This document shows positions 11,232 through 31,825 of a stretch of 64,000 bases of DNA, piece after piece. Source of the stretch: Alphaproteobacteria bacterium (GTDB lineage Bacteria; Pseudomonadota; Alphaproteobacteria; JAJFIK01); the NCBI GenBank assembly GCA_021774965.1, contig JAJFIL010000210.1, positions 1-64,000 of the forward strand, read 5' to 3'. The position numbers and the translations under genes are program-made. Every line of letters begins with the position of its first letter. The stretch's first letter is position 1. The notes under the pieces are model-generated. The model did not search any database. It saw only the letters and a list, made by a program, of their open reading frames with translations, and was not told where the DNA came from.

Positions 11232-11268
11232 AGTATCCAACTGCGTTTCTAACAAACTCAATCTCCTA

Positions 11269-12068: not shown

Positions 12069-15000
12069 ATGGACGTTTTTGATCTGGACGACTTCGTCCT
12101 CGACAACTACACCCGATTTGCGCGTTCATTCTCCAAAATTCGCTCGCCAGATCTGCAACAAAAAGTAGACGGCCTTTACGGAACAAAGAAGTTTTGGCCC
12201 GACGCGCTCGTCCAACTCAACCCGCACTATGAAAGCGGTGGGACCATTCGAGATTTTGTTCATTCCAAAGACCTTGAACCAGAATGTGAGGAAATATTTG
12301 GCGGCCTTCCTTCACTAAGAAAACACCAGGAACAAGCCATTGGATTGGCCCTTCAGGACAAGAGTTTTGTAGTCACCACCGGTACAGGCTCCGGCAAATC
12401 CCTATGCTTCTTCATACCCATCATCAACGAGGCTATTCGTCAGAAGAAAGCTGCCAAGCCCAAGTCCACAAAAGCCGTGGTCATTTATCCGATGAACGCC
12501 CTAGCAAATAGCCAAGTCAAAGAGCTTGAGCGCTATCTGGGAGCAAAAGGGGGTGAACAGGTTACATTCGCTCGATACACTGGCCAGGAAGGGGCGACAG
12601 AACGCGAACGCATCAAAAATGACCCGCCTGATATTCTCCTTACAAACTTTATGATGCTCGAACTTCTTATGACGCGCCAAAATGAGTTGGATCGCCAAGT
12701 TATAGAGAATTGTCGCGGTCTAAAATACGTGGTTCTCGATGAGCTTCACACCTACCGGGGCCGCCAGGGTGCTGATGTAGCAATGCTGATGCGACGTCTG
12801 AAGGCAAGAATGGGTGATCCAGATAATCCACCGCTTTGCGTCGGCACATCCGCCACGATGGCTAGTGAAGGAAATCCGGAGGCAAAGAACGAAGCCGTTG
12901 CAGAGATAGCATCTCAAATATTCGGAACGAGTATCGAAGTGGATGCTGTTGTTACAGAGACGCTACGCCGAGTAACGAACCCAAAAAGAAGTGCAACTTT
13001 GGGACTAGCTGGGCTGAACGATGCTGTTAAAAAGGTAAGCGAGGGAAATGCATACGTCAGAAAATCAAATGCAGATCTTGCCGATGATGACCTTGCAATT
13101 TGGGTTGAAACCAGCTTGGGATTGAAGAATGTTGATCGTAAGCCTGAACGAGCAAATCCACTTTCGCTCTCCGATGCAAAAATTCGCCTGGGAGAAGATG
13201 CGGACCTTTCTGAGGACATCTGTGAGAAAGCGCTAAAGGAAGCGCTAATTGCTTTCAGCACACCAGAGGCGGACAGAGGTGTTCCAAAGGGAACCGTAGA
13301 CCCCCTCTTCGCTTTCAAGCTCCATCAATTTATTTCGGGAGCTGGGCGCCTCTATGCGACGTTGCATGGTGAGGGACAACGAACAACAACGTTTAATGGT
13401 CAAAAGTTTGATCCTCAGAGCCCCGAGAACCGCCTCTATCCTACGCACTTTTGTCGTTCCTGTGGCCAAGAATTTCACCCAGTGACTCTTTGCAACGTCG
13501 CAGGCTCCGAGGTTTTTGAGAAGCGTGAAATAGATGACGTTCCAGCCAACGGGGATGAAGAAGAGGACGGCCAATGGGGCTTCATTATGCCTGAGCCCTC
13601 AGATAAGGCCTTTACATTTGCAGGGCTCGCAATTGATTACCCCGAACAGTGGCTTGAGGAGACCAAAAAGGGGGAAATACGCCTTAAAAAAACCTATCGC
13701 AAACGCCAGGCTCGGCCTTTCAACGTTCTCCCGACTGGTGAAGTCGAATCATCAGGGCGGCGCGTCTGGTTTGTTTCCGGAAAGTATAGTTTCTGCCCGA
13801 CCTGTAAGGATGTGAACACCTCAAGCGCAAGAGACATCAACAAACTTGCATCATTGAGTGCGGAAGGACGGAGCTCTGCAACAACCATTATTATTTCCTA
13901 CATATTGCGTTGGCTCAATCAACCAGATTCACCTATTCCAGAGCAAACAAGAAAGCTCCTCGCATTTACAGACAACCGTCAGGACGCAGCACTGCAGGCC
14001 GGGCATTTTAATGACTTTATTTTTGTATCCATGCTCCGCGGTGCAATTCTGTCAGCAATAAAGGACGCCGGTGAAGATGGTCTAGACGAGCCAAAATTCG
14101 GAGAGCGCATCCAAGTCGCACTTCGATTTTTAGCTGGTCCCGAGTTCCTAGAACGTAGATGTGAGTGGCTGGACAATCCTAAGCTCAAGGCCGGCGCCTT
14201 AATCGATGCGGAAGCAATTCTACGAGAAGGTCTTCAACATCGGTTTTGGATCGACCAAAGACGCGGCTGGCGATATACGAATCCAAACCTGGAGCAGCTG
14301 GGCCTACTTTCCGCAACATATCGTCACCTGGAAGATTTGGCCAAAGATGATGAGGAATTCCAAGATCACCCTGTTTTGAGCCAATGCACCCCTGGTGAAC
14401 GAGAAATGGCCCTCAGATCCCTTTTTGATCACATGAGAAAGGGTCTTGCCGTCAACACCTCCGTCCTCGAAACACTCCAAGTCGAAACCTTGGTCAACCG
14501 AATGCGAGGCCAGATAAAAAGTCCTTGGAGCATTGAGGACGATGGCACGATAGCAACAACTCTAATGCTGGATCCTCCCAAAGCTAAGGAACTTCGCGTA
14601 AGGGATGAAGCAAGAATTGTACGGGGCACGGCAACTAGTGCTATTGGCAAAAAACTAGGCGAACAGAAGTTTGGTGGCAAACCGCCTAGATCAAAAGAGA
14701 TCCCCCTAATCCTCGAAGGCCTTCTTCGCGCATCTCAAAATTATGGCCTGGTGAATGAAGTATCGTCCCCTGTCGGGGGGATGGGTTGGCAACTTGTTGC
14801 CACCAATATCACGTTCCACTATTCTAAAACCCCAAAGGATCCAGAACTCAACAATGCCTTTTTCACCGAGTTGTATGAGACAATTTCGGATCTACTTTCA
14901 TCCGGCGGGCAAGCGCTTTTTGGCTTCGAAGGGCGAGAGCACACTGCTCAAGTCGAGGGCGACCTCCGAGAGCTTCGAGAATTTCGATTCCGTTATGATG

Positions 15001-17237
15001 ACGAAGATCGGAAAGGACTGATAGAAAAAGAGGATGTGCTCAAAGAGTACCGCGAAGATGCGAGATTTTTGCCAACGCTCTTCTGCTCGCCGACGATGGA
15101 ACTTGGCGTCGACATTTCTTCGATGAACGTCGTTTATCTTAGGAATGCTCCCCCCACTCCAGCGAATTACGCGCAAAGAAGTGGTCGCGCCGGACGAAGT
15201 GGTCAGGCCGCTCTAATTGTAACCTATTGTGCGGCGCGGAGCCCGCACGATCAGTATTTTTTCTCCCGGCAGGATGCACTGGTGGATGGTGTAGTTGTTC
15301 CTCCATCAATTGACCTTCGGAACTTGGAGCTTGTTTCAAGCCACTTGCAAGCAGAATGGCTTGCGGCTACAGGCGCAGAACTCGATGCCCGGATTCCAGA
15401 AAACCTAAACATGCAATCCGATGGAAAGCGGCTTCAGGATGTCATTCAGGAGAAAATAAAATCAAGGAAAGCCATTGGTGAGGCAACCCCGCAAATTGAA
15501 AAAGTTCTCAAAGCATTGGAAGACGACTACAAGGAAGATATCCCCCTCTGGTATAAAAAGGGTCGTAGAGAATTTGCAAATGAAATCGTTGCTTCAGCGC
15601 CTACCCGATTTGACGATGCTTTCAATCGCTGGCGTGAGCTACTTGTAGCAGCTGAGCAGGCAATTGAGTTAGCAGTCAAGACTTTGAATGACTACTCCAT
15701 ATCCAGCGCGGAAAGAAAGGCCGCCCAAGCCCGCCAGCATATGGGCAATCAACAGCGCAACCTATTGCTTCAAGGGATCTCATCGCAAAATACAGACTTC
15801 TTTCTTTATCGCTATCTCGCAACGGAAGGATTCTTGCCCGGCTACAATTTTCCACGACTGCCGCTGCTCGCATTTGTCTCTGGGGGCAGGGACAATAATA
15901 GCCAAAGGTTCATACAACGTCCGCGATTTTTGGCAATATCAGAGTTCGGCCCCCACAGTCTCGTCTATCATGAGGGGCGGGCTTTTCGTGTGGATCGAGT
16001 TCTTCTTAAGGAAGCGGGAGATCAACCTGATGGCACCCTCACCACGAACTCTCGAGCGCTATGTCAACAATGCGGCGCTGGACATGAGGGTGAGCATCCC
16101 GAGAAATGTCATGTATGCGGAGCCGCATTGAGTGGCGCAATGATCATTTCTAACCTTTATCGTATCGAAAATGTAGGTACACGTGGCGTCGAACGTATCA
16201 CGGCGAATGACGAAGAACGACGCCGACAAGGGTACGAGCTACCAACTACGTTTTCGTTTGACGAATCTAGCTACAGTGTAAAAGGCCTTCTTAGTGATGG
16301 AGATGGCGAGTTGGCACTCCTGCATTTTGCTCAAGCGGCTCGGATAAGCCGAATCAACATGGGACTTCGTCGGCGGAAGGACAAACACAAAATTGGTTTT
16401 GATATTGATCCCCGAACAGGGGTTTGGCTTCGACAAGGGCAAGAGGATCCAAACGAACCACCTTCTCCGATCAAACAACGGCAGACAATTGTTCCCTTCG
16501 TAGAGGATCGAAAAAATTCACTTCTCTTGCGGTTCCCACAGAAGTGGCTTTCAACTCTCGGCGATAACGCTTCGACCACCTTGGCAACTATCCAGCACGG
16601 CCTTGCTCGAGGGATGGAAGCAATATTCCAAATCGAGGAGGGTGAAATCTTGGTTGAGCCCGTACCCTCACGTGATGAGCGAAACGCCATTCTCTTTTAC
16701 GAAGCTGCCGAAGGGGGCGCCGGCGCGCTTGGTCAACTTCTTGATGACGAATTTTCTTTTGCGAGAGTGGCCAAAGAAGCCTTAGAGATTATGCATTATG
16801 ACCCAAAGAGTTTCTCAAAGGGCGCACATGACCTTGAAGAGATCGAAGATGCTGATTGCGTTGCAGGATGTTACCGTTGCGTTCTTTCCTATTTTAATCA
16901 GATGGACCACGATGTAGTCGACCGCAGGGACATCAATGCGCTTGAGTTTCTTCTGAGGCTGACCAATTCCAAATCTCATTCAATTGAACTGATTTCAAAA
17001 GATTTGAATGACAAAGAGGAGCTACCACCACATGACGACGATCCATATGACGTTGATGGCTTTAAAGTAACAAGAATCTGGCGACGCGCCCGTGTTGCCG
17101 CCGTTGAAGAAATCGAATGCCCGGCGGGTCTTCAGTCATCTCTGGACGCCAGAGGCGTCCGTCTATTTGTTCTTCCAAGCAATGTGGAAAAGAGACGAGT
17201 AATCGAGCTTGAACTTCAGCAGGCCATAAAGGGATGA
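12069..17237 (+). CDS. DEAD/DEAH-box helicase with C-terminal DUF1998/MZB-like region (MrfA/DrmA-DrmB-like composite)
   Basis: TGTGSGKSLCFFIPI, LDELHTYRGRQGADVAML, GTSATM, QRSGRAGRSGQAALIVTYC; Cys clusters FCRSCG, FCPTCK, CQQCG/CHVCG; C-terminal EAAEGGAGALGQLLDD...DCVAGCYRCVLSYFNQ. Confidence 0.85.
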   Translation: MDVFDLDDFVLDNYTRFARSFSKIRSPDLQQKVDGLYGTKKFWPDALVQLNPHYESGGTIRDFVHSKDLEPECEEIFGGLPSLRKHQEQAIGLALQDKSFVVTTGTGSGKSLCFFIPIINEAIRQKKAAKPKSTKAVVIYPMNALANSQVKELERYLGAKGGEQVTFARYTGQEGATERERIKNDPPDILLTNFMMLELLMTRQNELDRQVIENCRGLKYVVLDELHTYRGRQGADVAMLMRRLKARMGDPDNPPLCVGTSATMASEGNPEAKNEAVAEIASQIFGTSIEVDAVVTETLRRVTNPKRSATLGLAGLNDAVKKVSEGNAYVRKSNADLADDDLAIWVETSLGLKNVDRKPERANPLSLSDAKIRLGEDADLSEDICEKALKEALIAFSTPEADRGVPKGTVDPLFAFKLHQFISGAGRLYATLHGEGQRTTTFNGQKFDPQSPENRLYPTHFCRSCGQEFHPVTLCNVAGSEVFEKREIDDVPANGDEEEDGQWGFIMPEPSDKAFTFAGLAIDYPEQWLEETKKGEIRLKKTYRKRQARPFNVLPTGEVESSGRRVWFVSGKYSFCPTCKDVNTSSARDINKLASLSAEGRSSATTIIISYILRWLNQPDSPIPEQTRKLLAFTDNRQDAALQAGHFNDFIFVSMLRGAILSAIKDAGEDGLDEPKFGERIQVALRFLAGPEFLERRCEWLDNPKLKAGALIDAEAILREGLQHRFWIDQRRGWRYTNPNLEQLGLLSATYRHLEDLAKDDEEFQDHPVLSQCTPGEREMALRSLFDHMRKGLAVNTSVLETLQVETLVNRMRGQIKSPWSIEDDGTIATTLMLDPPKAKELRVRDEARIVRGTATSAIGKKLGEQKFGGKPPRSKEIPLILEGLLRASQNYGLVNEVSSPVGGMGWQLVATNITFHYSKTPKDPELNNAFFTELYETISDLLSSGGQALFGFEGREHTAQVEGDLRELREFRFRYDDEDRKGLIEKEDVLKEYREDARFLPTLFCSPTMELGVDISSMNVVYLRNAPPTPANYAQRSGRAGRSGQAALIVTYCAARSPHDQYFFSRQDALVDGVVVPPSIDLRNLELVSSHLQAEWLAATGAELDARIPENLNMQSDGKRLQDVIQEKIKSRKAIGEATPQIEKVLKALEDDYKEDIPLWYKKGRREFANEIVASAPTRFDDAFNRWRELLVAAEQAIELAVKTLNDYSISSAERKAAQARQHMGNQQRNLLLQGISSQNTDFFLYRYLATEGFLPGYNFPRLPLLAFVSGGRDNNSQRFIQRPRFLAISEFGPHSLVYHEGRAFRVDRVLLKEAGDQPDGTLTTNSRALCQQCGAGHEGEHPEKCHVCGAALSGAMIISNLYRIENVGTRGVERITANDEERRRQGYELPTTFSFDESSYSVKGLLSDGDGELALLHFAQAARISRINMGLRRRKDKHKIGFDIDPRTGVWLRQGQEDPNEPPSPIKQRQTIVPFVEDRKNSLLLRFPQKWLSTLGDNASTTLATIQHGLARGMEAIFQIEEGEILVEPVPSRDERNAILFYEAAEGGAGALGQLLDDEFSFARVAKEALEIMHYDPKSFSKGAHDLEEIEDADCVAGCYRCVLSYFNQMDHDVVDRRDINALEFLLRLTNSKSHSIELISKDLNDKEELPPHDDDPYDVDGFKVTRIWRRARVAAVEEIECPAGLQSSLDARGVRLFVLPSNVEKRRVIELELQQAIKG

Positions 17238-17241
17238 ATTT

Positions 17242-20043
17242 ATGAGTTCACTAAATAAGTTCACACCCGGAGAGCTCCTAAGAGCGCGTGGTCGTGAATG
17301 GGTTGTTATCGATGCCACGGACGGTCTTCAGATACGTCCTTTGTCGGGCTCCGAGGATGAAATTGAAACCATCATCCCAGAGCTTGAAATTGACCCGGTT
17401 GGCTACGCATCATTTGACCCACCGAAATCAGGGCATGCTGGAGGTCGGGACGCTGCCCAGTTGCTGCGGGATGCGCTCCGTCTTTCGCTCCGACGAGGAG
17501 CTGGACCATTCCGCGGGGCAGGCCGCATTAATTTTGAACCACGAGCGTATCAACTTGCCCCACTAATGATGGCGCTACGTCAGGACGTAACCCGCCTTTT
17601 GATCGCCGACGATGTGGGCGTAGGTAAGACGATCGAGGCAGGGCTTATTCTACGGGAAATGTTGGACCGTGGCGAGATCGACAGGTTTACCGTTCTGTGC
17701 CCACCGCATCTGATTGACCAATGGACACGGGAACTTGAAAGCAAGTTTTCAATTCCTGCAACTCCTGTGACTGCATCAGCCGCAGCTCGGCTTGAACGAG
17801 ACCTGCCCAATACCACGAGTGTTTTTGAGGCTTACCCATACACCGTCGTCAGCCTTGATTTTATCAAGAGCGAAAGACGATTTTTCGACTTTAAGCGCGC
17901 CTGCCCAAATATGGTAGTTGTAGACGAAGCTCACGCGGCGGTCTCTGGCAGTCGAGGCAAGCAAAAGCGCTATGACCTCGTTCGAGCGCTAGCAGATGAT
18001 CCCGATAGGCACATGGTTTTACTTACCGCTACACCTCACTCTGGTGATGAGACAGCGTTCCACAATTTGCTGGGTCTTCTTGATCCGCAGTTCGCAAATC
18101 TTGACGAACTTGGTGTTGATGCTCGGCGCAAGGCTCGTGAGCAACTAGCAACTCACTATATTCAGAGGCGCCGAAGCGACATTCAGGCCTGGCGGGAGCC
18201 CGGACTTTTCCCCAAACATGAAAAGTCCGAGCTCCGTTATCGCCTTTCAGGTGAGTATGAGGCTTTCTATGCAAACATTCTCGATTATTGCGCCGACGTT
18301 ATTCGGTCCGAAGAGGGATCGGAGCGCCAACGCCTTGCATTCTGGGGCACCCTCATGCTTATGCGTTGCGTTGGATCAAGTCCGGCAGCCGCCGTTCGCA
18401 CTCTCAGCACTCGTGCCCTGAACAATTCAAACCAGATATCAGAGGAACACCTCGCAGCTCAGGCTCTTGATGATGAAGAGCTTGCAGAAGATGATATGGA
18501 ATCTGTTGCTCCAACGGATGATCCCAGGTTGACGGATCTCATTGCTCAGGCGCGAAATCTGGCCTCCTCTATTGAGGAAGACCCAAAATATGTTGCTCTT
18601 GCGAAGGCGGTGCAAACCCTTCTCAAACAAGGCCATGCACCGGTGGTCTTCTGTCGGTTCATCGCAACAGCTGAATCTATTGGCGCAGCGCTCTCCAAAC
18701 ACTTCAAGGACCATACAGTTGAAATTGTGACAGGGAGCTTGCCTTCGGAGGAGCGCGAAGTCCGGGTTGAGGAATTGGGGGATAGTGACAAGAGGATCTT
18801 GGTTGCCACCGATTGCCTTTCAGAAGGCATCAATCTTCAGGCCTATTTCGATGCAGTGATTCATTACGATCTCTCTTGGAACCCAACGCGGCACCAGCAA
18901 AGAGAGGGACGTGTCGATCGTTTTGGACAAAAGAGCCCTATTGTTCGCAGCATCCTGATGTATGGAGAGAACAATCCGATTGATGGGGCCGTCCTGGAGG
19001 TCATTCTGCGAAAGGCCCAACGCATTGAGCAACAAACAGGCGTCCGTGTTCCGATGCCCGATGACGGTGGGAGCCTCACCAAGGCATTGATGTCCGCGGT
19101 CTTACTTCGCACATCGGGACAGAAACAACTCTCGCTGGATATCGATATTAGTGACACCGCTGAAGCTAAAAACATTGACCTTGCTTGGATTGATGCCTCC
19201 GAAAGGGAAAAGCAATCGCGAACCATTTTTGCGCAACGAACCCTTAAGCCAGAGGACGTCGCTCCTGAGTGGGACGCAACCCTTCGTGCATTGGGGGGGT
19301 ATGAAGACACCGAACGCTTTGTTTCTCGTGCCATGATGCGGCTCGGGGCCCGCCTAGAGCCTCTAAAGAAAGGGGGGTACATGGCCCCTCTTCATCTCAC
19401 GCCGGATTACATAAAGGAGCGGTTTGTTTCTGAAAGCCTCTTGGAAGATGCAAGCGAGAATGGACTCAAGATCTCGTTCGAAGCGCGCCCGCCCGCAGGA
19501 TATGTCTCCGTTCACCGTACCCACCCCTTGGCTGGCGTTCTCGCCGAAACATTTCTTGAGCGAGCACTTGATCCACTCGACGGAGGCGATGGTCCGGCAA
19601 GCCTTCCAAGAACGGGCGCGTGGGAGACCAAAGCCGTCGAGGAACTCACGTGGCTATATATTTTGCGTATTCGCCACCGACTCGATTCACGCGGAAAATT
19701 CGGACCTCAGTTTTCAATGGCGGAGGAAGCAGCTGCCATCGCCATATCCGCTTCATCCCGTGTGATTTCAAAAACGGATGATGAGGCGTTTCAACTACTC
19801 GACATCGATGGCATGGATCTCGCTCAGAACATCAAGGAGAAAGAGATTAAACGAGCCATTGATGCACTTTCAGACACGTCATCCCAACTTGACACTTTTG
19901 CCACATCAAGGTCGGAGATCCTTGCACAGGATCACACCCGTGTCCGCCAAGCCCTGGGCTCGCGCGCACGGTCGTCTGTCGAGGTCGAAGCCGTTAAGCC
20001 CGTCGATGTGATCGGCCTCTATGTTCTTCTACCGGTCTTGTAA
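17242..20043 (+). CDS. drmD: SNF2-family helicase, DISARM DrmD-like
   Basis: GRINFEPRAYQLAPLMMALRQDVTRLLIADDVGVGKTIEAGLILREMLDRGEIDRFTVLCPPHLIDQW; VVDEAHAA; LLTATPHSGDE; QREGRVDRFGQ. Confidence 0.8.
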   Translation: MSSLNKFTPGELLRARGREWVVIDATDGLQIRPLSGSEDEIETIIPELEIDPVGYASFDPPKSGHAGGRDAAQLLRDALRLSLRRGAGPFRGAGRINFEPRAYQLAPLMMALRQDVTRLLIADDVGVGKTIEAGLILREMLDRGEIDRFTVLCPPHLIDQWTRELESKFSIPATPVTASAAARLERDLPNTTSVFEAYPYTVVSLDFIKSERRFFDFKRACPNMVVVDEAHAAVSGSRGKQKRYDLVRALADDPDRHMVLLTATPHSGDETAFHNLLGLLDPQFANLDELGVDARRKAREQLATHYIQRRRSDIQAWREPGLFPKHEKSELRYRLSGEYEAFYANILDYCADVIRSEEGSERQRLAFWGTLMLMRCVGSSPAAAVRTLSTRALNNSNQISEEHLAAQALDDEELAEDDMESVAPTDDPRLTDLIAQARNLASSIEEDPKYVALAKAVQTLLKQGHAPVVFCRFIATAESIGAALSKHFKDHTVEIVTGSLPSEEREVRVEELGDSDKRILVATDCLSEGINLQAYFDAVIHYDLSWNPTRHQQREGRVDRFGQKSPIVRSILMYGENNPIDGAVLEVILRKAQRIEQQTGVRVPMPDDGGSLTKALMSAVLLRTSGQKQLSLDIDISDTAEAKNIDLAWIDASEREKQSRTIFAQRTLKPEDVAPEWDATLRALGGYEDTERFVSRAMMRLGARLEPLKKGGYMAPLHLTPDYIKERFVSESLLEDASENGLKISFEARPPAGYVSVHRTHPLAGVLAETFLERALDPLDGGDGPASLPRTGAWETKAVEELTWLYILRIRHRLDSRGKFGPQFSMAEEAAAIAISASSRVISKTDDEAFQLLDIDGMDLAQNIKEKEIKRAIDALSDTSSQLDTFATSRSEILAQDHTRVRQALGSRARSSVEVEAVKPVDVIGLYVLLPVL

Positions 20044-20051
20044 GGAATAGC

Positions 20052-23000
20052 ATGGCCAGAAAACCCCAAAAACGCCGTCAGTCTCGTCGAACGGCTCGCC
20101 TTGATTTCGCAGCAATTGAATCTGTTGGATCCCTTCTTTCACCCGAGCTATTGACCAAGGTGGCGGCATTCAGTGCGCCTGACCAGACCGAGACGAGTTA
20201 CGAAATTCCCAAGGGATTGAGGCTTCGAGATGAGATTGCCCGATATTTCCAGATAGGCCTCGCACAATGGGAACAGTTTGCTTCCGTTAAAGACCAGCAG
20301 CCATCCGCTTCTGGGGCATTCATCGAAACTCTTCTCAAAGATTGTTTCGGTTTTGACAGTCTCAAGAAACAAAAACATGCGCATGTAGCCGATCATATTT
20401 TCCCGATAGGACACGCCGCACAGGATGGTCGTGTTCCAATTGTCATTGCGCCGATTAACGGGGGAGATGCACGCAAGTCAGGCATCGACGAAATTGCAGA
20501 AAAATTTGGCGACGGGTCAAGGCGCCGCTCGGCAACACAGCTTCTGCAAGAGTATCTCAATGCCGAGGAAGAAGCCCTTTGGGGAATCACATCGGATGGT
20601 CTAACGCTTCGTCTCTTGCGCGACAATGCAAGCCTTACACGCCCTGCTTGGATTGAAGTAAACCTTGAGAAGATTTTCACCGAAAACCTCTTCCCAGACT
20701 TTTCTGCCCTTTGGCTTTTGATCCACCAAAGCCGGTTTGGGTCTGCTGGAACCAATGTTTCAGATTGTGCACTTGAGCGCTGGCGAGAACGGGGGCGAAT
20801 TGATGGGTCCGCCGCCAAAGAGAAGCTTCGATTGGGTGTCGAAGCCGCCCTTCAGGAACTCGGGCAAGGCTTCATTGAACATCCAGCCAACGTGGCTCTG
20901 CGCGAAGCCCTTCAGAAGGGTGAGATCTCTGGCCAACAGTTCTACGAAGAATTGTTGCGACTGGTTTATCGAATGATTTTTCTATTTGCTGCGGAAGACC
21001 GAGGGCTCCTCTTTTCTCCTGATGCCACGGACGAAGCAAAAAGGGCTTATACCCATGGCTACTCTGTCGGGCGTCTCCGGGACCGCTGCACAAAACCCAG
21101 CAGCTGGGACCGCCATACGGACGCATGGGAGGGCCTTAGAGCCTCTTTCCTGGCACTGGCGCGTGGAGAGCCTCGATTGGGTCTCGCCGCGCTCGGTGGT
21201 CTCTTCCTGCCCCAGAAATTGCAAAACCTCGATGGCGCGAAGATAGACAATCGGCACCTTCTCCATGCCATCTATCGCATCTCTTGGTTTAGGCCAGAAG
21301 GTCAGCCCATGTCGCGCGTCAATTGGCGGGACATGGAAACAGAAGAGCTTGGTTCCGTATATGAGAGCCTTTTGGAACTTACGCCTCAGGCCAGCGCTGA
21401 TGGTCGTAACTTCTCATTCGCGATAGGTGATGCAGCCAAAGGGAATGCACGCAAGACATCGGGTAGTTACTATACCCCGGATGAACTCGTCCGACACCTT
21501 CTAGATACCACTTTGGATCCTGTGTTAGATGCAGCTGAACTCCGAAATCACAATGATCCACCATCTGAGATCCTGAAACTTTCCATAATTGATCCGGCAT
21601 GTGGTTCTGGTCACTTCTTACTTGGTGCCGCCCGCCGAGCTGCCGGACGCATTGCCCGCCATCGCTCTCCTGGCGCGCCAAGTCAAGAAGTCTTCCAGCA
21701 TGCAATGCGCGAGGTAGTTTCCCACTGCATATATGGCGTCGATAGAAACCCAATGGCCGTCGAGCTTTGCAAAGTGGCACTTTGGATCGAAGCATTGGAA
21801 CCAGGTAAGCCGCTCTCCTTTCTTGATTCTCGTATCCGCTGTGGAGATAGTCTTATTGGAGTTTTCGACATTAACGATCTGAGCGATGGCATTCCTAATG
21901 ACGCATTCAAGCCCTTAGCAGGAGATCAGAAGGAGCCCGCAGCGTACTATCGCGAAAAGAACAAGCGAGAAGTGAAGGAACGCGAAAAGGTAGATACAGG
22001 ATTTGGATTGGGAAAAGGCCAAAACGAATTGTCTGAGGCCTTTGCCGGCCTTCATAGTCACCATGAAAATAGTCTCGAAGAAGTCGAATCTAAACGTCAA
22101 CACTTCAATCAAATAATGTCACAAGGCGGAACCGCTTGGCGGCTCAAGACTGCCTGTGATCTTTGGACTGCCGCATGGTTTGCGCCAAAAATTGATGTAC
22201 CGGTCCGAGGTCGAGAACTAATACCAACGAGTGGCCAGGTATGGGAATATCTTCGTGGGGTAACGCTCTATGGACCCATTGTTGCCGAGGCTGATCAGTG
22301 CGCAAGCAAGTTCAACTTCTTTCATTGGCCAATTGAGTTTCCAGATATTATGGCTAGTGGTGGTTTCGACGTCGTCATTGGCAATCCTCCTTGGGAAAGA
22401 ATAAAGCTTCAGGAGGAAGAGTTTTTCGCAGTAACGGCACCAGAAATCTCCAAGGCCAAAAATGCCGCGGCACGTAAAAAGCTAATCGCCACTCTCGATG
22501 AAACCAATCCTCGCTTGTTGGACCAGTGGAACGCTGCATCTCAAGCAGCCGCCTGTACCAGCAAATATCTACGGGCCTCTAATCGTTTTCCCCTGGGAGG
22601 TGTCGGCGATGTCAATACGTATGCAGTTTTTGCGGATCATTTTCGACAATTGATCAATCCCCTTGGGCGTGCCGGGTTGATACTCCCGAACGGCCTGGTT
22701 ACTGGATACACTTATCGAGAGTTTTTACGTCATCTGCTCAGCACCAGGACACTTGCCTCATTCTATGGATTCGAAAATGAAGACAAGCTTTTCAAAAGTG
22801 TGCACAACGAAACAAAGTTCGGCTTGCTGACAATAACTGGGAGCGGAAATCCTATCGATCAACCCTGGTTCACCGCTCACCTAAGACAACCAGAACAGAT
22901 CGCTGACCCTGAACGGCGCTATGCTCTCACGATTGACGAAATCGAAGCAATCAACCCAAACACTCTAAATCTACCTGCATTCAGATGGGCAAAGGATGCT

Positions 23001-24107
23001 GAAGTCACAGCGGCTATTCATAAAGCCGCCCCCGCTTTTATCCGCAAGCATGCGAATGGACCTGAAGATAACCCATGGAAAGTTAGCTTTAAGAGAATGT
23101 TCGATATGGCGAATGACTCGAGCAGCTTTTTGGATCATGCGGATATTTCGCCACTGATAGTGAACAGGCAGGATGCAGTAGCAGTCCTTGAAGACGGCCG
23201 GGAAGTCTACCCTCTGTATGAAGGAAAAATGTTTTGGCATTTTGATCACCGCTACGGAACCTATGAAGGTCAATCGGTTAAACAGGCCAACAAAGGTGTT
23301 TTGCCACGCGTCCCTACTGCGAACCATGAAAATCTGAACTACAAAATTGAACCGCGTTACTGGATAGAAAAGGACCTCACAGATGCGGCGCTTGCAGAGC
23401 AGTGCACGAAAGAATATTTTTATGCATGGAGAGATGTGGGGCCCTCAGAACGCACACTTGTTGGTACTATTATTCCGTATACTGCGGCAGGCCACAAAGC
23501 CCCCATTCTTCTTACACCAAAGGAGCCGAAGCTGTTTGCTGCCTTGGTCGCTCTCCTAAGCAGCCTCGTTGCAGATTACTGTGTAAGACAGAAATCGAAA
23601 GCAATGTCCTATTTCGTCATTGAGCAAATAGCGGCAATTCCTCCCGACGAGTTAACCGGTAGTCGTGGTTGGCTTGGTAGCTCGCCCTCAAACTGGCTAT
23701 CTGACCGAGTGCTTGAGCTGTGCTATACAAACCAAGAACTCGTTTCCTTTGCCGTAGATATGGAACGCGATCACCCGCCCTTCCGATGGCAACCTGATCG
23801 CCGAGTTTTGCTACAGGCCGAAATTGATGCTGCAGTGCTACATCTTTATGAGCTGAATAGAGACCAAGCAGAATGGCTACTCGATTCGTTTGCGGTTCTT
23901 CGGAAGTACGAAGAACGAGATCACGGCGAGTTCCGTACAAAGCGCGTCGTGCTTGAAATCTATGATGAGATCGCAGTCGCCAGGGAGGCCGGGGATGCTT
24001 ACCTTACTCGTCTTGACCCTGCACCGGCGGACCCCAGTTGCTGCCACGACGAAAGGGCTCGCGGAGACGGGAAATCTCGACGAAAAACCTCGGCTGAAGA
24101 AACATGA
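20052..24107 (+). CDS. drmMI: Eco57I/type IIG-class adenine-specific DNA methyltransferase, DISARM DrmMI-like
   Basis: SAM motif IDPACGSGHFLLGA; catalytic motif VVIGNPPWERI; YGVDRNPMAVELCKVALWIEA; 1351 aa; 9-bp gap from the DrmD-like gene. Confidence 0.82.
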   Translation: MARKPQKRRQSRRTARLDFAAIESVGSLLSPELLTKVAAFSAPDQTETSYEIPKGLRLRDEIARYFQIGLAQWEQFASVKDQQPSASGAFIETLLKDCFGFDSLKKQKHAHVADHIFPIGHAAQDGRVPIVIAPINGGDARKSGIDEIAEKFGDGSRRRSATQLLQEYLNAEEEALWGITSDGLTLRLLRDNASLTRPAWIEVNLEKIFTENLFPDFSALWLLIHQSRFGSAGTNVSDCALERWRERGRIDGSAAKEKLRLGVEAALQELGQGFIEHPANVALREALQKGEISGQQFYEELLRLVYRMIFLFAAEDRGLLFSPDATDEAKRAYTHGYSVGRLRDRCTKPSSWDRHTDAWEGLRASFLALARGEPRLGLAALGGLFLPQKLQNLDGAKIDNRHLLHAIYRISWFRPEGQPMSRVNWRDMETEELGSVYESLLELTPQASADGRNFSFAIGDAAKGNARKTSGSYYTPDELVRHLLDTTLDPVLDAAELRNHNDPPSEILKLSIIDPACGSGHFLLGAARRAAGRIARHRSPGAPSQEVFQHAMREVVSHCIYGVDRNPMAVELCKVALWIEALEPGKPLSFLDSRIRCGDSLIGVFDINDLSDGIPNDAFKPLAGDQKEPAAYYREKNKREVKEREKVDTGFGLGKGQNELSEAFAGLHSHHENSLEEVESKRQHFNQIMSQGGTAWRLKTACDLWTAAWFAPKIDVPVRGRELIPTSGQVWEYLRGVTLYGPIVAEADQCASKFNFFHWPIEFPDIMASGGFDVVIGNPPWERIKLQEEEFFAVTAPEISKAKNAAARKKLIATLDETNPRLLDQWNAASQAAACTSKYLRASNRFPLGGVGDVNTYAVFADHFRQLINPLGRAGLILPNGLVTGYTYREFLRHLLSTRTLASFYGFENEDKLFKSVHNETKFGLLTITGSGNPIDQPWFTAHLRQPEQIADPERRYALTIDEIEAINPNTLNLPAFRWAKDAEVTAAIHKAAPAFIRKHANGPEDNPWKVSFKRMFDMANDSSSFLDHADISPLIVNRQDAVAVLEDGREVYPLYEGKMFWHFDHRYGTYEGQSVKQANKGVLPRVPTANHENLNYKIEPRYWIEKDLTDAALAEQCTKEYFYAWRDVGPSERTLVGTIIPYTAAGHKAPILLTPKEPKLFAALVALLSSLVADYCVRQKSKAMSYFVIEQIAAIPPDELTGSRGWLGSSPSNWLSDRVLELCYTNQELVSFAVDMERDHPPFRWQPDRRVLLQAEIDAAVLHLYELNRDQAEWLLDSFAVLRKYEERDHGEFRTKRVVLEIYDEIAVAREAGDAYLTRLDPAPADPSCCHDERARGDGKSRRKTSAEET

Positions 24108-24183
24108 CACCTTTTGAATTTGCGATCGGATTTCGCGCCACAAACGCACTGGAAATTTCTGAACAACATGCAGGAGGCGGCAC

Positions 24184-24948
24184 ATGAGTATAAGCCAGGG
24201 AATTCGCAGCCTTCTAGACAAAGCCGCTATCGACAATGGATTTGCTATTCAAAAGGACATGGATGGCCCTTGGCTTTGTTTCGAGGCCATGGCGGCCCCT
24301 GCTAGGGTTTGCCTCACTCAGACTGATAGTGGCTTCGCTGTGGGTACAGACCATGTCGGCGCGGCGCACGAAATGGGAGAAACCGGCATTCACTCGGCAC
24401 CGCCCACACCTCCTTCCGGCTTTGTTGCATTTGCAGCTCCGGATTTGCGATCCGTAAATCTGCTTGTTGCGCAGGTCTATCGACTGTCTCGCTCGCTTCC
24501 GACCGAGCCCCTTCGCGAATTTGAGAAGCGCCTCAAGGAAGAACCACCGTCGACAACCGAAATTGAGCGACTTCGCAAGGAGCGCGTTGGACAAGATGTC
24601 TTTCGCAAGGCGCTGATGCTCTACTGGAACGAGCAGTGCGCTGTCACTGGGGTGAGCCACCCAAATCTGCTTCGAGCTAGTCACATCATCCCGTGGGCCA
24701 TTTGCGAGGATGATGCAGAGCGGCTCAACGTAATGAATGGCCTCTTGCTTGCCTCCCACCTTGACGCCGCGTTTGACACCGGCTTGATCAGCTTTGACAA
24801 CGCAGGTCAAATCATTCTCTCGCCAGAATTGACATCCCATGACAGGGAGAAGCTTGGGATATCAGAGACTATGCGTCTCACTCGTATATCTGAGGATCAC
24901 ATCAAACGCCTTGCATGGCATCGAGAGAACGTCTTCAAACCAAACTGA
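24184..24948 (+). CDS. HNH endonuclease (HNH_2-like)
   Basis: CAVTGVSHPNLLRASHIIPWAICEDDAERLNVMNGLLLASHLDAAFDTGLISFD; RBS gcaggaggcggcac before ATG. Confidence 0.85.
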   Translation: MSISQGIRSLLDKAAIDNGFAIQKDMDGPWLCFEAMAAPARVCLTQTDSGFAVGTDHVGAAHEMGETGIHSAPPTPPSGFVAFAAPDLRSVNLLVAQVYRLSRSLPTEPLREFEKRLKEEPPSTTEIERLRKERVGQDVFRKALMLYWNEQCAVTGVSHPNLLRASHIIPWAICEDDAERLNVMNGLLLASHLDAAFDTGLISFDNAGQIILSPELTSHDREKLGISETMRLTRISEDHIKRLAWHRENVFKPN

Positions 24949-24957
24949 GGATTTTGC

Positions 24958-25248
24958 ATGGATCTGCACCCAGTAATGAAGAAAGTTGAGCGCATTGCTG
25001 CATATCGTGCATCTTGGCGGGCGAGCCATTTGAGAGCTCGGATGCAAGTAGAGCCTGATGGCATAACGGTCACCTTCAAGGGCGGTGCCGAGCAACCCGG
25101 CTATCCAGGAGAAGAGATGACCTACTTCCATCCGGCCGCTGATCTTGACGCGTCTCTTCAGATCGCAGAAGCCTTCAAGGAAACTCCAAACGAAGATGAT
25201 CTTGTCACCGCTGGGTTTAAACAGACCAGATACATCATGATTGACTAA
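24958..25248 (+). CDS. Small hypothetical protein (96 aa) at the end of the DISARM-like operon
   Basis: ORF starts 9 bp after the HNH gene on the same strand. Confidence 0.55.
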   Translation: MDLHPVMKKVERIAAYRASWRASHLRARMQVEPDGITVTFKGGAEQPGYPGEEMTYFHPAADLDASLQIAEAFKETPNEDDLVTAGFKQTRYIMID

Positions 25249-25328
25249 CCGCGGCGCTCTGTTGTTTGTCAAGGTCCGTCGCGCTGAAGAGGTCGAATCA
25301 CGCCTAAAGATCAATAGCCTGACTGAAA

Positions 25329-26579
25329 CTACATGAGCGGCTGCCAAGCGTACTCCTCAAATGCTTGATCTACTCCCGTCCCTCGCTGGACTGCCTCAAG
25401 AGCGGAATGCCACCCTCGACCAATAACTTCGGCCTGGGGTGAAACACTGTGCGAGTTTGCCCATCCTCGGGCGCTCTTCAGAGCGGCATCTATGGGATTG
25501 TCATTAACTCGCCCGGATCGCACCCCACGCGATTGTCGCCTCCCTTTCGCGAGCTCCATAACGTGATTTTCCTGGCCAGCGACCTTATCAAGTGGAATAT
25601 CGACTGCGACCCCTCCTGATTGAGGAATGAAATCATACCCAAGAAAACGAAATTCTTGATTGAGCGGCTTAGCTTCAAGATACTTGAAAGTTAGCGGGCG
25701 GGCCGGGGCGTCTGTAAAAACGTCCAGGAGGGCTTTAATCAGGCATTGCGCGTCATCATATGACTTTAGAAGAAACACAAAGTCGTCAACATAGCAAAAA
25801 GCTCTGCAGTCAAGTGAATGTCCGCGCGCCACCTGGCGAAGCCGTTCACTTAAAAATACATCTGCTACCAATGGCGAACAAGCCGACCCTTGGAGTACTC
25901 CACACCGATCCCGTACTTCCTGTTCCCCATGTAATACATTGGAGGGAGAACGCATGTTCCCTCCAACAACCATCCTGCCCCGATAGGCCGAGGATAGAAC
26001 ATGGGACTCAATTACCCGGCGGGGCAAATTGAGCTTTCTCACCAAGTCTTGGTGGCTCAGACTTGGGTAGAAACTTTGAATGTCTGCGGATACACGCCAA
26101 GAATATTGACCTCCATCCATTTCATTCTTTAAATCGCTCGCTGCGCGGTTGCGGCCCCCACGTCCGCCATATTGCCAATCTAGGATTTCCTGTTTTGCAA
26201 ACGGCAAGAGCGCAATTTTTGCAACCCGCTGCAAAGCAGTATCCTGAAAATTGAACGCACAAATTTCCCGATAACCATCGACTTTCGGCTCTGAATGAAT
26301 TGTCACATTATGGTGCGTCTGCTCAAACATATTCAATGTCTCGGACATGCTTAGCAGTTCACCATCCGACGGCCTTTCTATCCGTGTCCAGTGGCGATAA
26401 GTCCTATCGGAACGTGTCTTTGCCAAAGCGCATAGTACAGTTCCACTAGAGCGAAGGATCTTTCGTTGTAGCTTAGCGGCCCTTCTGAGCTCTCTCGCTT
26501 CAAGTGCTGCCTCAATTGCTTCCAGCCGTTGCTTCAGGGTCCTTGTTGCGTTGTGGAATGACGTCTCATAGTTGGGCAT
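25329..26579 (-). CDS. Standalone reverse transcriptase (RNA-directed DNA polymerase)
   Basis: RT motifs VSADIQSFYPSL (RT3/A), GVLQGSACSPLVADVFLSERL (RT4/B), AFCYVDDFVFLL (RT5/C, YVDD), LTFKYLEAKPLNQEFRFLGYDF (RT6/7). Confidence 0.92.
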   Translation of the reverse strand: MPNYETSFHNATRTLKQRLEAIEAALEARELRRAAKLQRKILRSSGTVLCALAKTRSDRTYRHWTRIERPSDGELLSMSETLNMFEQTHHNVTIHSEPKVDGYREICAFNFQDTALQRVAKIALLPFAKQEILDWQYGGRGGRNRAASDLKNEMDGGQYSWRVSADIQSFYPSLSHQDLVRKLNLPRRVIESHVLSSAYRGRMVVGGNMRSPSNVLHGEQEVRDRCGVLQGSACSPLVADVFLSERLRQVARGHSLDCRAFCYVDDFVFLLKSYDDAQCLIKALLDVFTDAPARPLTFKYLEAKPLNQEFRFLGYDFIPQSGGVAVDIPLDKVAGQENHVMELAKGRRQSRGVRSGRVNDNPIDAALKSARGWANSHSVSPQAEVIGRGWHSALEAVQRGTGVDQAFEEYAWQPLM

Positions 26580-26594
26580 TGGTAATCTCCCCGC

Positions 26595-27104
26595 TTATTG
26601 ATGTAGACTGTGGAATGCATCAGATGAAAGTTGCCTTATCGTCTCGATTACCTGGCGAGCGCCGTCGGCACCTTTCAGGTCGATCGCCTGCAGGATGCAC
26701 TCGAGCTGGAATTCATTGAACCACCGAGGTTCCTGGGGTTCTTTTGCCTTTGGGAAACTAAGTCTGCTGTCGGCGCTGGCCTCCAACCAACGCCTTTTCT
26801 CGGCCAAAAGTCGCACAAAAGAAGAGATTTCACCTTTGCCAAACGCATCATCCAGCAGGATGTTCAAAGTCTGCAAATGGTCTTCATATGTCTCTAGGGT
26901 CACTTGAACAGCTCTTGTGACTTTAGCTGTCTCTGCAGCGGCAAGATGTATTGGGATGCACTTGGACCTATGTCGCCCCACTGCGCTCTTGGACAAACCA
27001 TATTGCTTAGCGATAGCTCTTACACTTGTACCTCTCGCGATCGCTCTGTTGATCTTATCAGCTTCTACGTGATCGCAAGTTCTACACATAGATTTTTCCC
27101 CCAA
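26595..27104 (-). CDS. HTH-domain hypothetical protein, second gene of the RT operon
   Basis: CRTCDHVEADKINRAIARGTSVRAIAKQYGLSKSAVGRHRSKCIP resembles a resolvase/terminase-like HTH; overlaps the upstream ORF and lies 15 bp before the RT start. Confidence 0.7.
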   Translation of the reverse strand: MGEKSMCRTCDHVEADKINRAIARGTSVRAIAKQYGLSKSAVGRHRSKCIPIHLAAAETAKVTRAVQVTLETYEDHLQTLNILLDDAFGKGEISSFVRLLAEKRRWLEASADSRLSFPKAKEPQEPRWFNEFQLECILQAIDLKGADGARQVIETIRQLSSDAFHSLHQ

Positions 27105-27583
27105 GTGTTGTCCAGCTCCATTAAATCTCGTCCCGAAACGTCCCGCATTTCGGCGCTTTTGCGAACAACGAATGTGCTCGTACCAAATTGAATGCCAAAC
27201 AATCCAAACCCCACCATCGTTCCCGGTGACACAACTCGCATGCCGGCCTCATCTACTGCTTTATGAATGGCTTGCGATACATCGGCGATATGATCCAAAG
27301 TTAGGACTTCTCCAGCGGAGATTACGACCCTGAATTCATATACTTGTGGGAGGTCTTGCATTCGTTCACAAAACTCTTTCTCAAGTTCATCATCCGAAAA
27401 CTCAACTATATAATCCCCGGGGGTGCAGAAAGATGATGCCGATAATTTTGTGTTGGACAGGTAGACATCACAAGAAAAGCGCTGCTCCAGCATATGCCTT
27501 ACTTGCTCCAGGTCATTACTAAGATTTGGCGTTGGCATTTCTACATTTGGCATCGACGACTTTCCTTCTGGCATATCACTCAA
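27065..27583 (-). CDS. Hypothetical protein, first gene of the RT operon
   Basis: 172-aa ORF co-directional with the HTH and RT genes, overlapping the HTH gene by 40 bp; no recognised domain. Confidence 0.6.
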   Translation of the reverse strand: MSDMPEGKSSMPNVEMPTPNLSNDLEQVRHMLEQRFSCDVYLSNTKLSASSFCTPGDYIVEFSDDELEKEFCERMQDLPQVYEFRVVISAGEVLTLDHIADVSQAIHKAVDEAGMRVVSPGTMVGFGLFGIQFGTSTFVVRKSAEMRDVSGRDLMELDNTWGKNLCVELAIT

Positions 27584-27807
27584 GATGATTTAGTCCCGGT
27601 AATCGACGGGACAATCAATAGGTTGTATCTCAGAATTGGAATTCAAGAGCTCTTAACTATTTAATCACTGTACTGATTGATTTTTAGTCAACCTGTAGAG
27701 TAAAAATCGTCCTGTTGCCAAGAGGATCCGTGTCGGTTGCCCTTTGCCCAACACCCCGTTTTCGGCTTCGTCTCATATCGCAACGAGCTCAAGAACTCGT
27801 CAGACAC

Positions 27808-27825
27808 TTTGCAACGAGTTGCAAA
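27808..27825. repeat. Perfect inverted repeat TTTGCAAC-GA-GTTGCAAA
   Basis: 8-bp arms and 2-bp spacer; related palindrome at 11216-11231. Confidence 0.7.
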
Positions 27826-27844
27826 TTCTGCAAATTGCGCCTCC

Positions 27845-29566
27845 TTAAGGGAGTGCAAGCTGAACAGAAGGATACCGAACCTTAGAAATCGCGTTTTGTA
27901 AATTTTTGAGCGATGGGCCGCGCCCGTACTTTTGCTGTACTTCGTGACGTGACCACCCACCAAGAAATTTGGCGATTTCCTCACTCACCTCACCGTCGCG
28001 CAACGCGTCACGAAATGTATGTCTGAAACTATGAAAGACCTTATCACGCTCGGTAACATCCACATTGTCTAAGAAACGACCAAACCACTTTGAAAAGGGA
28101 TCTGACAAGTTTCCTTTTGGTGATCGCCGAAGCTCGGGGAAAAGCCGCACATGGTTTGATCGCTTTTGTCGTCTTGCAAACGAAACAAGACCTAACTCAA
28201 CCAGTTTAGGGTGGATCGGGATAACACGCTTGCTTGCTTTGCTTTTGAGTGTGCGCGCATTATTGACATCTGCACCAATGTGCTTATCCGTTATCTCAAG
28301 GACCGAAACATTGTCTTCAAGGCGAATGTCGGCGCTGTGTAGCTGACAAGCTTCCTCAAGTCGCAAGCCATTGTACAGGGCTAAGAGGGGTACCCAATAC
28401 CTACCTCTGCGTGGATTGTTGCCGCCAGTAGTGGCGTACCCGCGTTCATCATCCATGCATCCAGTATAGATAGGGCTTTTGAAGACCCGCTTGAGCTCAG
28501 GGCCGGTGAACGGCTGCCGGCCCTTTTCTTGATCACCCTTCGGAGCTCTGAGATTCTTTGCATGGTTCTTTATGATCAGCTCTTCCACAACTGCAAACTC
28601 AAGAAGAGAGTTCAGCCGATCCAGGTAGCCCTTTATTGTCTTCGGCTTTAGTCCAAACCCTTCCTTCGCAGGAAAACGCTCTGCAATATCTCTGTGCGAT
28701 AACTTGGGGAACTTCTTGCTCGCGTTTGTTGGAAGCTTGATCAAAATGTCATTTCGGAATTCACGGCATTGCTTTCGAGTGATATTTCCAATTGGCGTAT
28801 CGGGGCCAAAGACGTTAGCTATCAGGTTAAGTTCGGTCCAATACTTTCGCCTAGTACTGCTCGTCCGACTACGTCCCGGATCGCTCATAAATTGATCAAT
28901 GACTCTTTTCAGTGTGGGCGTCACAAATTCGGCGGACTGGTCGGCGTTGGGTTGAGCTCTGCGGTCAAATAGTTCCGTGTCATGGACACGATCACTCCCT
29001 TTCGCCTTGAACCTATCAATTGTACGCCTGGCATCCTCCAACTGCGCTCGCAACAAGAAGTGCTCAAGCACACGTTTTTCACTATCAGTCACCTCCATTT
29101 CTTGAGCCGCCGAAACACTTTCTGCCAACCAGCTGACGTTGAGAGGTGGTTCACCCTGGTCAAGAGCGTTTTCGAGGACTCCAAGGCGGCAAGTGGCCTC
29201 AACTCGCGATGCACCCCAGTTCTCAACAACATCCGCAAAATTGTCTCTTCGGGCTTGTTGCTCCTGATGTCGATAGTCGTCGAACCACATGCGGGCCAGG
29301 TCTCTTGACTGATCAACAGACGGTTGGGCAGTTGGACGACGGCGCGGTCTTGCAATTGTTTGATTTCGGAGCAGATCGCACTTCTCATGGAACGAATGAG
29401 CCAAGCCTAAGCACTGTCGTTTTGCTTGCTTCAGGTCGCTTGTTCGCAAGGATGCTTTACATTCCTTGCGCCCAAAAGGCGTTTGAATACCGCGGGGAAC
29501 GGCTGCTCTAAAATAGAATGTGCCATCACGAACATAGAGATGGTCTACACCAGAAACTTTACGCAT
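27845..29566 (-). CDS. Tyrosine-family site-specific integrase
   Basis: LYNGLRLEEACQL, HSFRHTFRDAL, LGGWSRHEVQQKYG catalytic-box motifs (R...HxxR...W/H...Y); N-terminal HLYVRDGTFYFRAAVPRGIQ typical of island integrases. Start taken at MRKVSG; track start is 29581. Confidence 0.92.
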   Translation of the reverse strand: MRKVSGVDHLYVRDGTFYFRAAVPRGIQTPFGRKECKASLRTSDLKQAKRQCLGLAHSFHEKCDLLRNQTIARPRRRPTAQPSVDQSRDLARMWFDDYRHQEQQARRDNFADVVENWGASRVEATCRLGVLENALDQGEPPLNVSWLAESVSAAQEMEVTDSEKRVLEHFLLRAQLEDARRTIDRFKAKGSDRVHDTELFDRRAQPNADQSAEFVTPTLKRVIDQFMSDPGRSRTSSTRRKYWTELNLIANVFGPDTPIGNITRKQCREFRNDILIKLPTNASKKFPKLSHRDIAERFPAKEGFGLKPKTIKGYLDRLNSLLEFAVVEELIIKNHAKNLRAPKGDQEKGRQPFTGPELKRVFKSPIYTGCMDDERGYATTGGNNPRRGRYWVPLLALYNGLRLEEACQLHSADIRLEDNVSVLEITDKHIGADVNNARTLKSKASKRVIPIHPKLVELGLVSFARRQKRSNHVRLFPELRRSPKGNLSDPFSKWFGRFLDNVDVTERDKVFHSFRHTFRDALRDGEVSEEIAKFLGGWSRHEVQQKYGRGPSLKNLQNAISKVRYPSVQLALP

Positions 29567-29676
29567 AACGCCTCCGAACACTTTGGATAGTACAACCTAC
29601 TGTACCATGTGCTGTCACAGCGGCAGATTTCAAGACGTTGATTTTGCTAAGTTTCTGGTATCGCTCAAGAAAAATA

Positions 29677-29699
29677 TGCGTGGCGGAGAGACAGGGATT
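29677..29699. repeat. tRNA-proximal attachment-site repeat
   Basis: tgcgtggcggagagacagggatt, identical to 304-326; overlaps the 3' end of tRNA-Ser. Confidence 0.9.
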
Positions 29700-29768
29700 C
29701 GAACCCTGGGTACGCAAGCGCACAACGGTTTTCGAGACCGCCCCATTCGACCACTCTGGCACCTCTCC
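29681..29768 (-). tRNA. tRNA-Ser (anticodon CGA)
   Basis: GGAGAGGTGCCAGAGTGGTCGAATGGGGCGGTCTCGAAAACCG...GGGTTCGAATCCCTGTCTCTCCGCCA: class II variable arm, anticodon loop CTCGAAA, encoded CCA. Confidence 0.95.
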
Positions 29769-29902
29769 GCAAGACTGAGATTTGTGTAATCCTCAGGCGG
29801 CGCGGACCATAAGGCAGGCTTGACCCCAGAGCAAGTGCAACACACGGAACAAGCTGAATTGGAAGTATCCATCACAGGTCGCCCTGCCAATTCTCTCTCA
29901 AC

Positions 29903-31825
29903 TCACGGTCTGGTGCTCCAATACTGTGAAAAGAGAGCATCGAGCTGATGCGCGCCCAATCGCGAAAGATGATCATCGTCTCGGTAGAATAGACCCTCTG
30001 GAGCCTGCCCTTGGCAGGACGTTTCATTGCAGAGGTAAGACGTTGGATCAAGCAAGGTTACATTTGGATGGGCCTCAAGGGTTGCCAGTAGATTACTAAA
30101 TCGGGCCTTCTGTTCCTCGTAGGCCGAACGAGCTAGAATCGGTGCAAACGGACGACCATAGAGCTGTGCCCGCGCTGCAGTATGGTATCCAAAAAGCGGT
30201 GAACTGGGGGGTGAGTGCATTATGTAAAAATCGCGTTCGGGATAATGCCGAAACAACGCGCCCAGCCCGTTCAAGACGCCTTCAGGTCCCGAAACTAAGC
30301 GACCGTTTTCGAGGTAGTATCGGTTAGAGAGAACATCTTGCTCCCAGAAATTTACGATGATGATCTTTTCAAGGGCCGGATCGTTATCCAGCGTCTCCTC
30401 AAGTAGTGCATTCATATAGGCGTACATTCCCCGCGAGCCTTGCTTTTCGATACCAAGTGCGGGAAGCCAACCAGCATTGGTTATTTGATAACCTGAGACG
30501 CCAGTTCCGGAAGCCGTTTCGAAGACTGCTTCTGCGACAGCCCCGGCATGACTGTCGCCAACAAAAACAAAACTTGGAGCCGTGTTGTTAGCACCGCGGA
30601 GACATAGATTGGGGTCTCGGCGACGCCATACCATATGGCATTCGCCTACCTGGGGTTCGGAATAATTTGTTGGATCGAGGAGAGAGGTAACAGACTGCGG
30701 CATGCGGCTCTCAACACCGTCAGCAAGAAAGAGGACTGCGCCCAATGCGACACACCCAATCGTTGCACTGGTGGCTGCGGTAAAAATCGGAATTCGAGAT
30801 TTGGTGCCCCGCCGCTGCCGAAAGGGTTGTTCTACAAAACGCCACGAAAGTGCTGCGGCCAGGAATGAGGCACCAAGAACAAGTGCAAGCACCACATCAC
30901 TCGGCGGCTCAATACTCACATAGCGAGAAAAGACCAAAATCGGCCAGTGCCACAAATACAGGGAGTATGAGATCAGACCGACGAAAACAAGTGGGGGCTG
31001 GGAAAGAAGGCGGCCGACAACAGTTGATCGTGTGCCATTCGCGTAGAGCATCATGGCCGCCCCCAAACAGGCAGGAAGGGCAGTCAGACCAGGAAACGGA
31101 GTTGAATCGTCCAATAAAAAGAAACTGCCAAAGATGCCTGCCAAGCCCAACCAACTAAGTATTTCACATACCAAATAAGACTTCGCTGGCCTGACAATAT
31201 TTATGGCGAGCAAGGCTCCACACATCAGTTCCCATGCGCGAGTTGGTGTTAGGTAGAAGGCTGCATTTGGCATATTGACTATTGCCCATACGCTCAGCAA
31301 CAGCGATAGAAGAAATAGAAGTGTAACGCCTATCTGCAATAGAAGCATTTTCCCACGCCCTAGCCAAAGACAGACAAACATGAATACAGGAAAAAGGATG
31401 TAGAATTGCTCTTCAACAGCCAAAGACCATGTATGGAGCAGCGGTTTCATCTCTGCCGCTGAATCGAAATAACTGGCTTCTTGCCAAAAGAAAAAATTGG
31501 ACCCGAAGAGCGCTGTTGCTATTTGGCTTCTCCCGAATTCTTCCAAGTCCTCTGGAAGGAGAAGGAAACTCGCAGCAATTGTGCTAACACCCACCACCAA
31601 GAAAAGAGCCGGAAAAAGCCTGCGAACACGCCGCTCATAAAAATCAACAATCGAAAACTTCCCTGATTGAAGCTCACGGAGAAGTATTGACGTGATGAGA
31701 TAGCCTGAGATTACGAAGAAGATATCAACGCCTACAAAGCCACCTTCAACCATTCCTGCGTGGTATGCGACGACAGGAAGAACCGCGATGGCTCGCAAGC
31801 CGTCTATATCAGCGCGGTTTTTCAC
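29903..31825 (-). CDS. OafA/YrhL-like membrane acyltransferase (acyltransferase_3 + SGNH domain)
   Basis: MKNRADIDGLRAIAVLPVVAYHAG...GGFVGVDIFFVISGYLIT; C-terminal FVGDSHAGAVAEAV and DDDHLSRLGA SGNH motifs. Confidence 0.93.
   Translation of the reverse strand: MKNRADIDGLRAIAVLPVVAYHAGMVEGGFVGVDIFFVISGYLITSILLRELQSGKFSIVDFYERRVRRLFPALFLVVGVSTIAASFLLLPEDLEEFGRSQIATALFGSNFFFWQEASYFDSAAEMKPLLHTWSLAVEEQFYILFPVFMFVCLWLGRGKMLLLQIGVTLLFLLSLLLSVWAIVNMPNAAFYLTPTRAWELMCGALLAINIVRPAKSYLVCEILSWLGLAGIFGSFFLLDDSTPFPGLTALPACLGAAMMLYANGTRSTVVGRLLSQPPLVFVGLISYSLYLWHWPILVFSRYVSIEPPSDVVLALVLGASFLAAALSWRFVEQPFRQRRGTKSRIPIFTAATSATIGCVALGAVLFLADGVESRMPQSVTSLLDPTNYSEPQVGECHMVWRRRDPNLCLRGANNTAPSFVFVGDSHAGAVAEAVFETASGTGVSGYQITNAGWLPALGIEKQGSRGMYAYMNALLEETLDNDPALEKIIIVNFWEQDVLSNRYYLENGRLVSGPEGVLNGLGALFRHYPERDFYIMHSPPSSPLFGYHTAARAQLYGRPFAPILARSAYEEQKARFSNLLATLEAHPNVTLLDPTSYLCNETSCQGQAPEGLFYRDDDHLSRLGAHQLDALFSQYWSTRP

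Follow-up and report, generated by a model that had tools for sequence, protein, structure and literature searches.

A clade of group II-related reverse transcriptases carried near recombinases on islands of Alphaproteobacteria, with a possible role in immunity

What kind of enzyme is the standalone reverse transcriptase (RT) encoded in this alphaproteobacterial DNA, and what might it do there? The preliminary description of the 64,000-nucleotide stretch analysed here (the window) placed three minus-strand open reading frames at 25329-27583, and their positions, overlap and 15-bp gap were confirmed. The 416-residue RT (25329-26579, minus strand, ATG start) is a real RT, since it matches RVT_1 with an E value of 8e-17, and the motifs reported for it, SADIQSFYPSL, QGSACSPL and the YVDD of YVDDF, are indeed all intact. 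Separated from it by 15 bp is the gene of a 169-residue HTH protein (26595-27104, minus strand; TTG start, in-frame ATG at 27089), which in turn overlaps by 40 bp the gene of a 172-residue protein (27065-27583, minus strand; TTG start, in-frame ATG at 27574). The HTH protein contains an N-terminal CxxC...H...C motif and matches generic HTH models weakly (HTH_50, E value of 2e-4, below the cut-off); it is likely a DNA-binding regulator. The 172-residue protein had been assigned to no recognised family, and it found no meaningful match in the domain and family model libraries that we searched. Its predicted structure is of low confidence (pLDDT 52), and a fold search with this model returned no match at an E value of 0.001 or better.

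A search of 399 genomes of the phylum yielded no homologue of the 172-residue protein, and one of plasmids none of either partner. Counterparts of both were also absent beside the RT in the loci of nine relatives, a comparison outside which the four loci found last lie. Because neither partner is conserved with the compared RT relatives, the three genes are unsupported as a unit, contrary to the earlier proposal that they act together. Instead of the three-gene neighbourhood, the RT repeatedly has beside it a site-specific recombinase, in many cases accompanied by a tRNA, and frequently a small HTH gene of excisionase-like type.

The operon is cargo of a 29.4-kb island inserted in tRNA-Ser(CGA) (29681-29768, minus strand). 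A 23-bp repeat at the 3' end of the tRNA (29677-29699, plus strand) is identical to a distal att repeat (304-326, plus strand), and a DUF6538-type tyrosine integrase (27845-29581, minus strand) lies 262 bp upstream of the operon. The integrase, the tRNA and the att repeats, all missed in the preliminary description, identify the element as an integrative island. The GC content between the att repeats is mostly about 0.46-0.53, rising up to 0.57 at 7-11 kb, and that of the right flank is mostly 0.50-0.60, above most of the island; the left flank spans only 303 bp of the contig, which limits the comparison at the left junction. In two genomes of the same genus, the surroundings of tRNA-Ser(CGA) match on the protease side, and 8.9 and 4.1 kb searched on its other side showed no recombinase, as would be expected if the site were unoccupied in both.

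The remaining cargo of the island includes PDC-S31/DUF2971, a RelA/SpoT-domain protein, DUF6615, nSTAND3, and T5orf172/PDC-S57. The RelA/SpoT domain is located near the N-terminus of a 1024-residue protein (1557-4631, plus strand), a size unusual for a CapRel-type toxin, and the nSTAND3 NTPase match is a borderline one in a 1281-residue protein (7243-11088, minus strand). Four plus-strand genes at 12069-24948 encode a DEAD/MZB helicase (DruE-like), an SNF2 helicase (DpdE/DrmD-like), a DrmMI/type IIG-like methylase, and an HNH_2 protein; they constitute a mixed DISARM/Druantia-like module that matched no single known system.

Direct searches with the window RT retrieved RTs whose local identity did not exceed about 33%, and single-protein scans of genome and viral contigs, together with tblastn in plasmids and phages, gave only group II or CRISPR RTs, or none. 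One protein (L010/L053) was the reciprocal best match of the window RT among the open reading frames in hand and aligned with it over most of its length. Following its family added three more members, a scan with their alignment added members in Asticcacaulis, Aestuariivita, Bosea (truncated), Mesorhizobium, and Pinisolibacter, and a profile search of another family added four further ones. The resulting family comprises 14 distinct loci including the window and, judged by the named members, belongs to the single class Alphaproteobacteria. Seven candidates (L065, L066, L068, L070, L072, L075, and L081) were excluded as group II-type RTs by profile score. With one member as the query, the family was not found in plasmid and phage collections; a 4.9-kb unverified "phage" record (L009, MT839988) carries a group II-type RT gene.

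Against a family HMM built with the window RT left out, this RT scored 142.9 bits, compared with 77.2 for group II, 59.4 for CRISPR, and 41.4 for DGR-like models. The RT phylogeny called for at the outset was computed with IQ-TREE; the 14 rows of the family form one clade with 100/99 support, in which the window RT is a deep branch and which is separate from the group II, CRISPR, DGR-like, and DRT9 RTs, in trees with long branches that contain DRT9 as the sole UG class and no retrons. Family members score 41-62 bits on a generic RT model versus 105-205 bits for nine other RTs scanned. No UG, DRT, retron, or CRISPR model of PADLOC fits the family specifically, and no clade-specific model was present in the copies of Pfam, NCBIfam, PHROGs, and PADLOC searched. 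Taken together, these results establish that the window RT belongs to an alphaproteobacterial clade that is distantly related to group II intron RTs and absent from those libraries. We found no description of the family in open papers; at least one RT survey and most subscription papers lay outside this scope, so that an earlier description is possible.

The clade resembles several known RT classes in part. The window RT shares the RT fold, the N-terminal helices and the motif order with group II intron and G2L4 RTs, but it has neither a maturase (GIIM) domain, as stated in the preliminary description, nor an intron RNA (no Rfam group II intron in 24000-30000), scores 66.8 bits on TIGR04416 against a cut-off of 300, belongs to a separate clade, and is recombinase-adjacent. 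A HOTAIR match in the same Rfam scan was discarded as chance. Like the RT of the RT-Cas1 proteins of type III CRISPR, it is a group II-related RT without an intron, but there are no cas genes among the island neighbours tested and no Cas1 or Cas6 fusion, and the clades are separate. The reported lack of template and variable repeats of a diversity-generating retroelement also held, the longest direct repeat in 24900-29800 being 19 nt at 84%, and the fourth motif is QGSACSP rather than the DGR-type IGNLTSQ. As for retrons, whose msr-msd structures are variable, no inverted repeats of at least 14 nt were found and the retron RT models matched weakly.

The proposal of an undescribed defence-type RT stands insofar as no described DRT/UG, CRISPR, DGR or group II maturase class fits and the setting is a defence island, while the role itself we infer from the company that the RT keeps. 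That company extends to the relatives. L062 has Hachiman HamA and a SIR2-pAgo-type protein, L069 a type I restriction-modification system, L071 and L064 a type I-like methyltransferase, L094 an MmeI-type protein and Mrr, and L093 PDC-S31. In L062 (Asticcacaulis solisilvae, 7914-15338), the RT, HamA, and the SIR2 short-pAgo-type protein follow one another in a compact defence cluster. Since the neighbouring defence genes differ at every family locus, it is the islands that the RT goes with, and no particular partner. A precedent is provided by DRT10 (UG17, class 2 DRT), likewise a standalone RT in defence islands with YVDD and a small partner gene, sometimes beside a tyrosine recombinase, the deletion of which left immunity unaffected (PMC12632851). 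On the strength of this company and this precedent, we regard immunity as the most likely role, and the reading that we prefer, tentatively and with somewhat less than an even chance, is that the RT, a probably domesticated enzyme with an intact active site that is carried as cargo at the integrase end of the island, forms the catalytic part of an anti-phage or anti-plasmid immune module. Upon a trigger, the RT would bind an RNA, perhaps from the possibly structured stretch between the integrase and the operon (27584-27844, minus strand), and would copy it into cDNA, and the cDNA or an RT-cDNA complex would then act on the invader or the host; the HTH protein may control expression, and the 172-residue protein may be an accessory or an effector. 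The fold z-scores of such upstream stretches are mixed, from -2.6 to -3.1 in the window, from +0.4 to -4.2 in the relatives, and from -1.0 to -1.9 on the reverse strands. Against an immune module stand the change of defence neighbours from locus to locus, the private partners of the window RT, and the alteration of YxDD to YxDN in six of the 14 members.

Members of the family are met repeatedly at the recombinase (tRNA) end of chromosomal defence islands. In 11 of the 14 loci (10 of 14 with each locus's own recombinase removed from the query), the RT has a site-specific recombinase no more than 2.5 kb away, the window qualifying through its DUF6538 integrase, versus 0 of 26 control RT loci by the same search, or 1 of 26 when an annotated integrase that the search missed in L008 is counted; the Fisher p value of about 1e-5 is indicative, since the control flanks are shorter and the queries were taken from family loci. 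These recombinases are of different kinds, including DUF6538 tyrosine, Arm-DNA-bind_3 tyrosine, small resolvase, and large serine types. A tRNA adjoins the integrase in the window, L053, L059, L060, L064, and L096, and adjoins the RT in L071. At most loci the RT and recombinase genes converge; those of the window and L093 point the same way. Genes for HTH_17 proteins, which are excisionase/AlpA/MerR-like, are RT-adjacent in five loci, immediately upstream in L058, L059, L064, and L096 and between the RT and the integrase in L060; XRE genes lie upstream of the RT in L053. In addition, L059, L064, and L071 share genes for a further tyrosine recombinase that is XerC-like (about 60% identical) and for an unassigned protein of about 360 residues, which suggests that their islands are one element family.

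This arrangement of integrase, RT, and HTH gene makes a service to the island itself the main rival of immunity: the RT may work in or regulate integration, excision, or copying, for example through a cDNA or ribonucleoprotein that sets recombination directionality or repairs excision ends. The absence from plasmids and phages, as judged with one member, also speaks for it. However, three loci (L062, L071, and L095) have no near recombinase, the mechanistically unrelated recombinases make a specific enzymatic partnership unlikely, and the HTH_17 proteins may merely be regulators. Cargo slots are, moreover, common at island ends; in phage satellites and islands such as the P4-like hotspots, accessory defence genes occupy a fixed slot near the integrase. 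The family shares this slot but differs in that one RT clade occupies it time and again, on islands whose recombinases are unrelated. On balance, we consider an island role unlikely, and it is still less likely that RT activity or RT-made cDNA controls the excision and integration of defence islands, with some members using a natural YxDN site.

The predicted structure of the window RT (pLDDT 74, with eight sequences in the alignment) bears on a third explanation, a DNA-repair RT like G2L4, which would act in microhomology end joining after breaks, including cuts by island restriction enzymes. The nearest solved folds are those of group II intron RTs and the G2L4 RT (8fli, 6me0, and 9d4s), followed by DGR and DRT9 RTs; the maturase domain was not found, and the second residue of YxDD is not Ala, as in the YIDD of G2L4. 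Yet the folds resemble each other only in a generic way (TM about 0.57-0.63, 15-17% identity), the RT is island-borne and patchily distributed, and the window has YVDD instead of the YADD or YIDD of group II and G2L4 RTs, all of which leaves a repair role quite improbable.

The active site varies within the family. YVDD is present in the window, L058, L059, and L062, YADD in L064, HLDD in L094, VADD in L095, and FVDD in L096, while the second Asp is replaced by Asn in L053, L060, L067, L069, L071, and L093, one of which also lacks the Tyr, and this YxDN form occurs in at least two branches. It resembles the GDN variant of some RNA virus polymerases. The YxDN members need not be dead, by analogy with the G2L4 RT, in which the first Asp binds metal and the second points away from the active site (PMC12337344). 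Such alterations, the truncation of L067, and the alignment of the window RT's N-terminus with a group II RT could also be signs that a group II intron RT is decaying or that the gene has no present function. We hold this to be very improbable, as the window frame is open and full-length with every catalytic motif present, the family is monophyletic with a recurrent location, and no remnants of intron RNA were found in 24000-30000.

Membership in a described DRT/UG class (UG17/DRT10, UG4, or DRT3a) is largely refuted and retains hardly any probability, for although UG17 is the best UG/DRT model of PADLOC for the window RT (54.7 bits), we rejected this match as non-specific because ordinary group II-type RTs score above 160 and up to 178 bits there, four relatives put to the same model reach just 17-35 bits, no SLATT domain, the partner in DRT10, was seen in the Pfam and PADLOC matches of the window RT's partners, and the tree sets the RT apart from DRT9.

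An immune function of the probably domesticated RT remains the reading that we favour. Domesticated bacterial RTs, such as DRT2, DRT9, DRT10, and G2L4, have repeatedly yielded new chemistry, and the present clade is a compact new target that would reveal either a new RT immune mechanism or a tie between reverse transcription and the mobility of islands.
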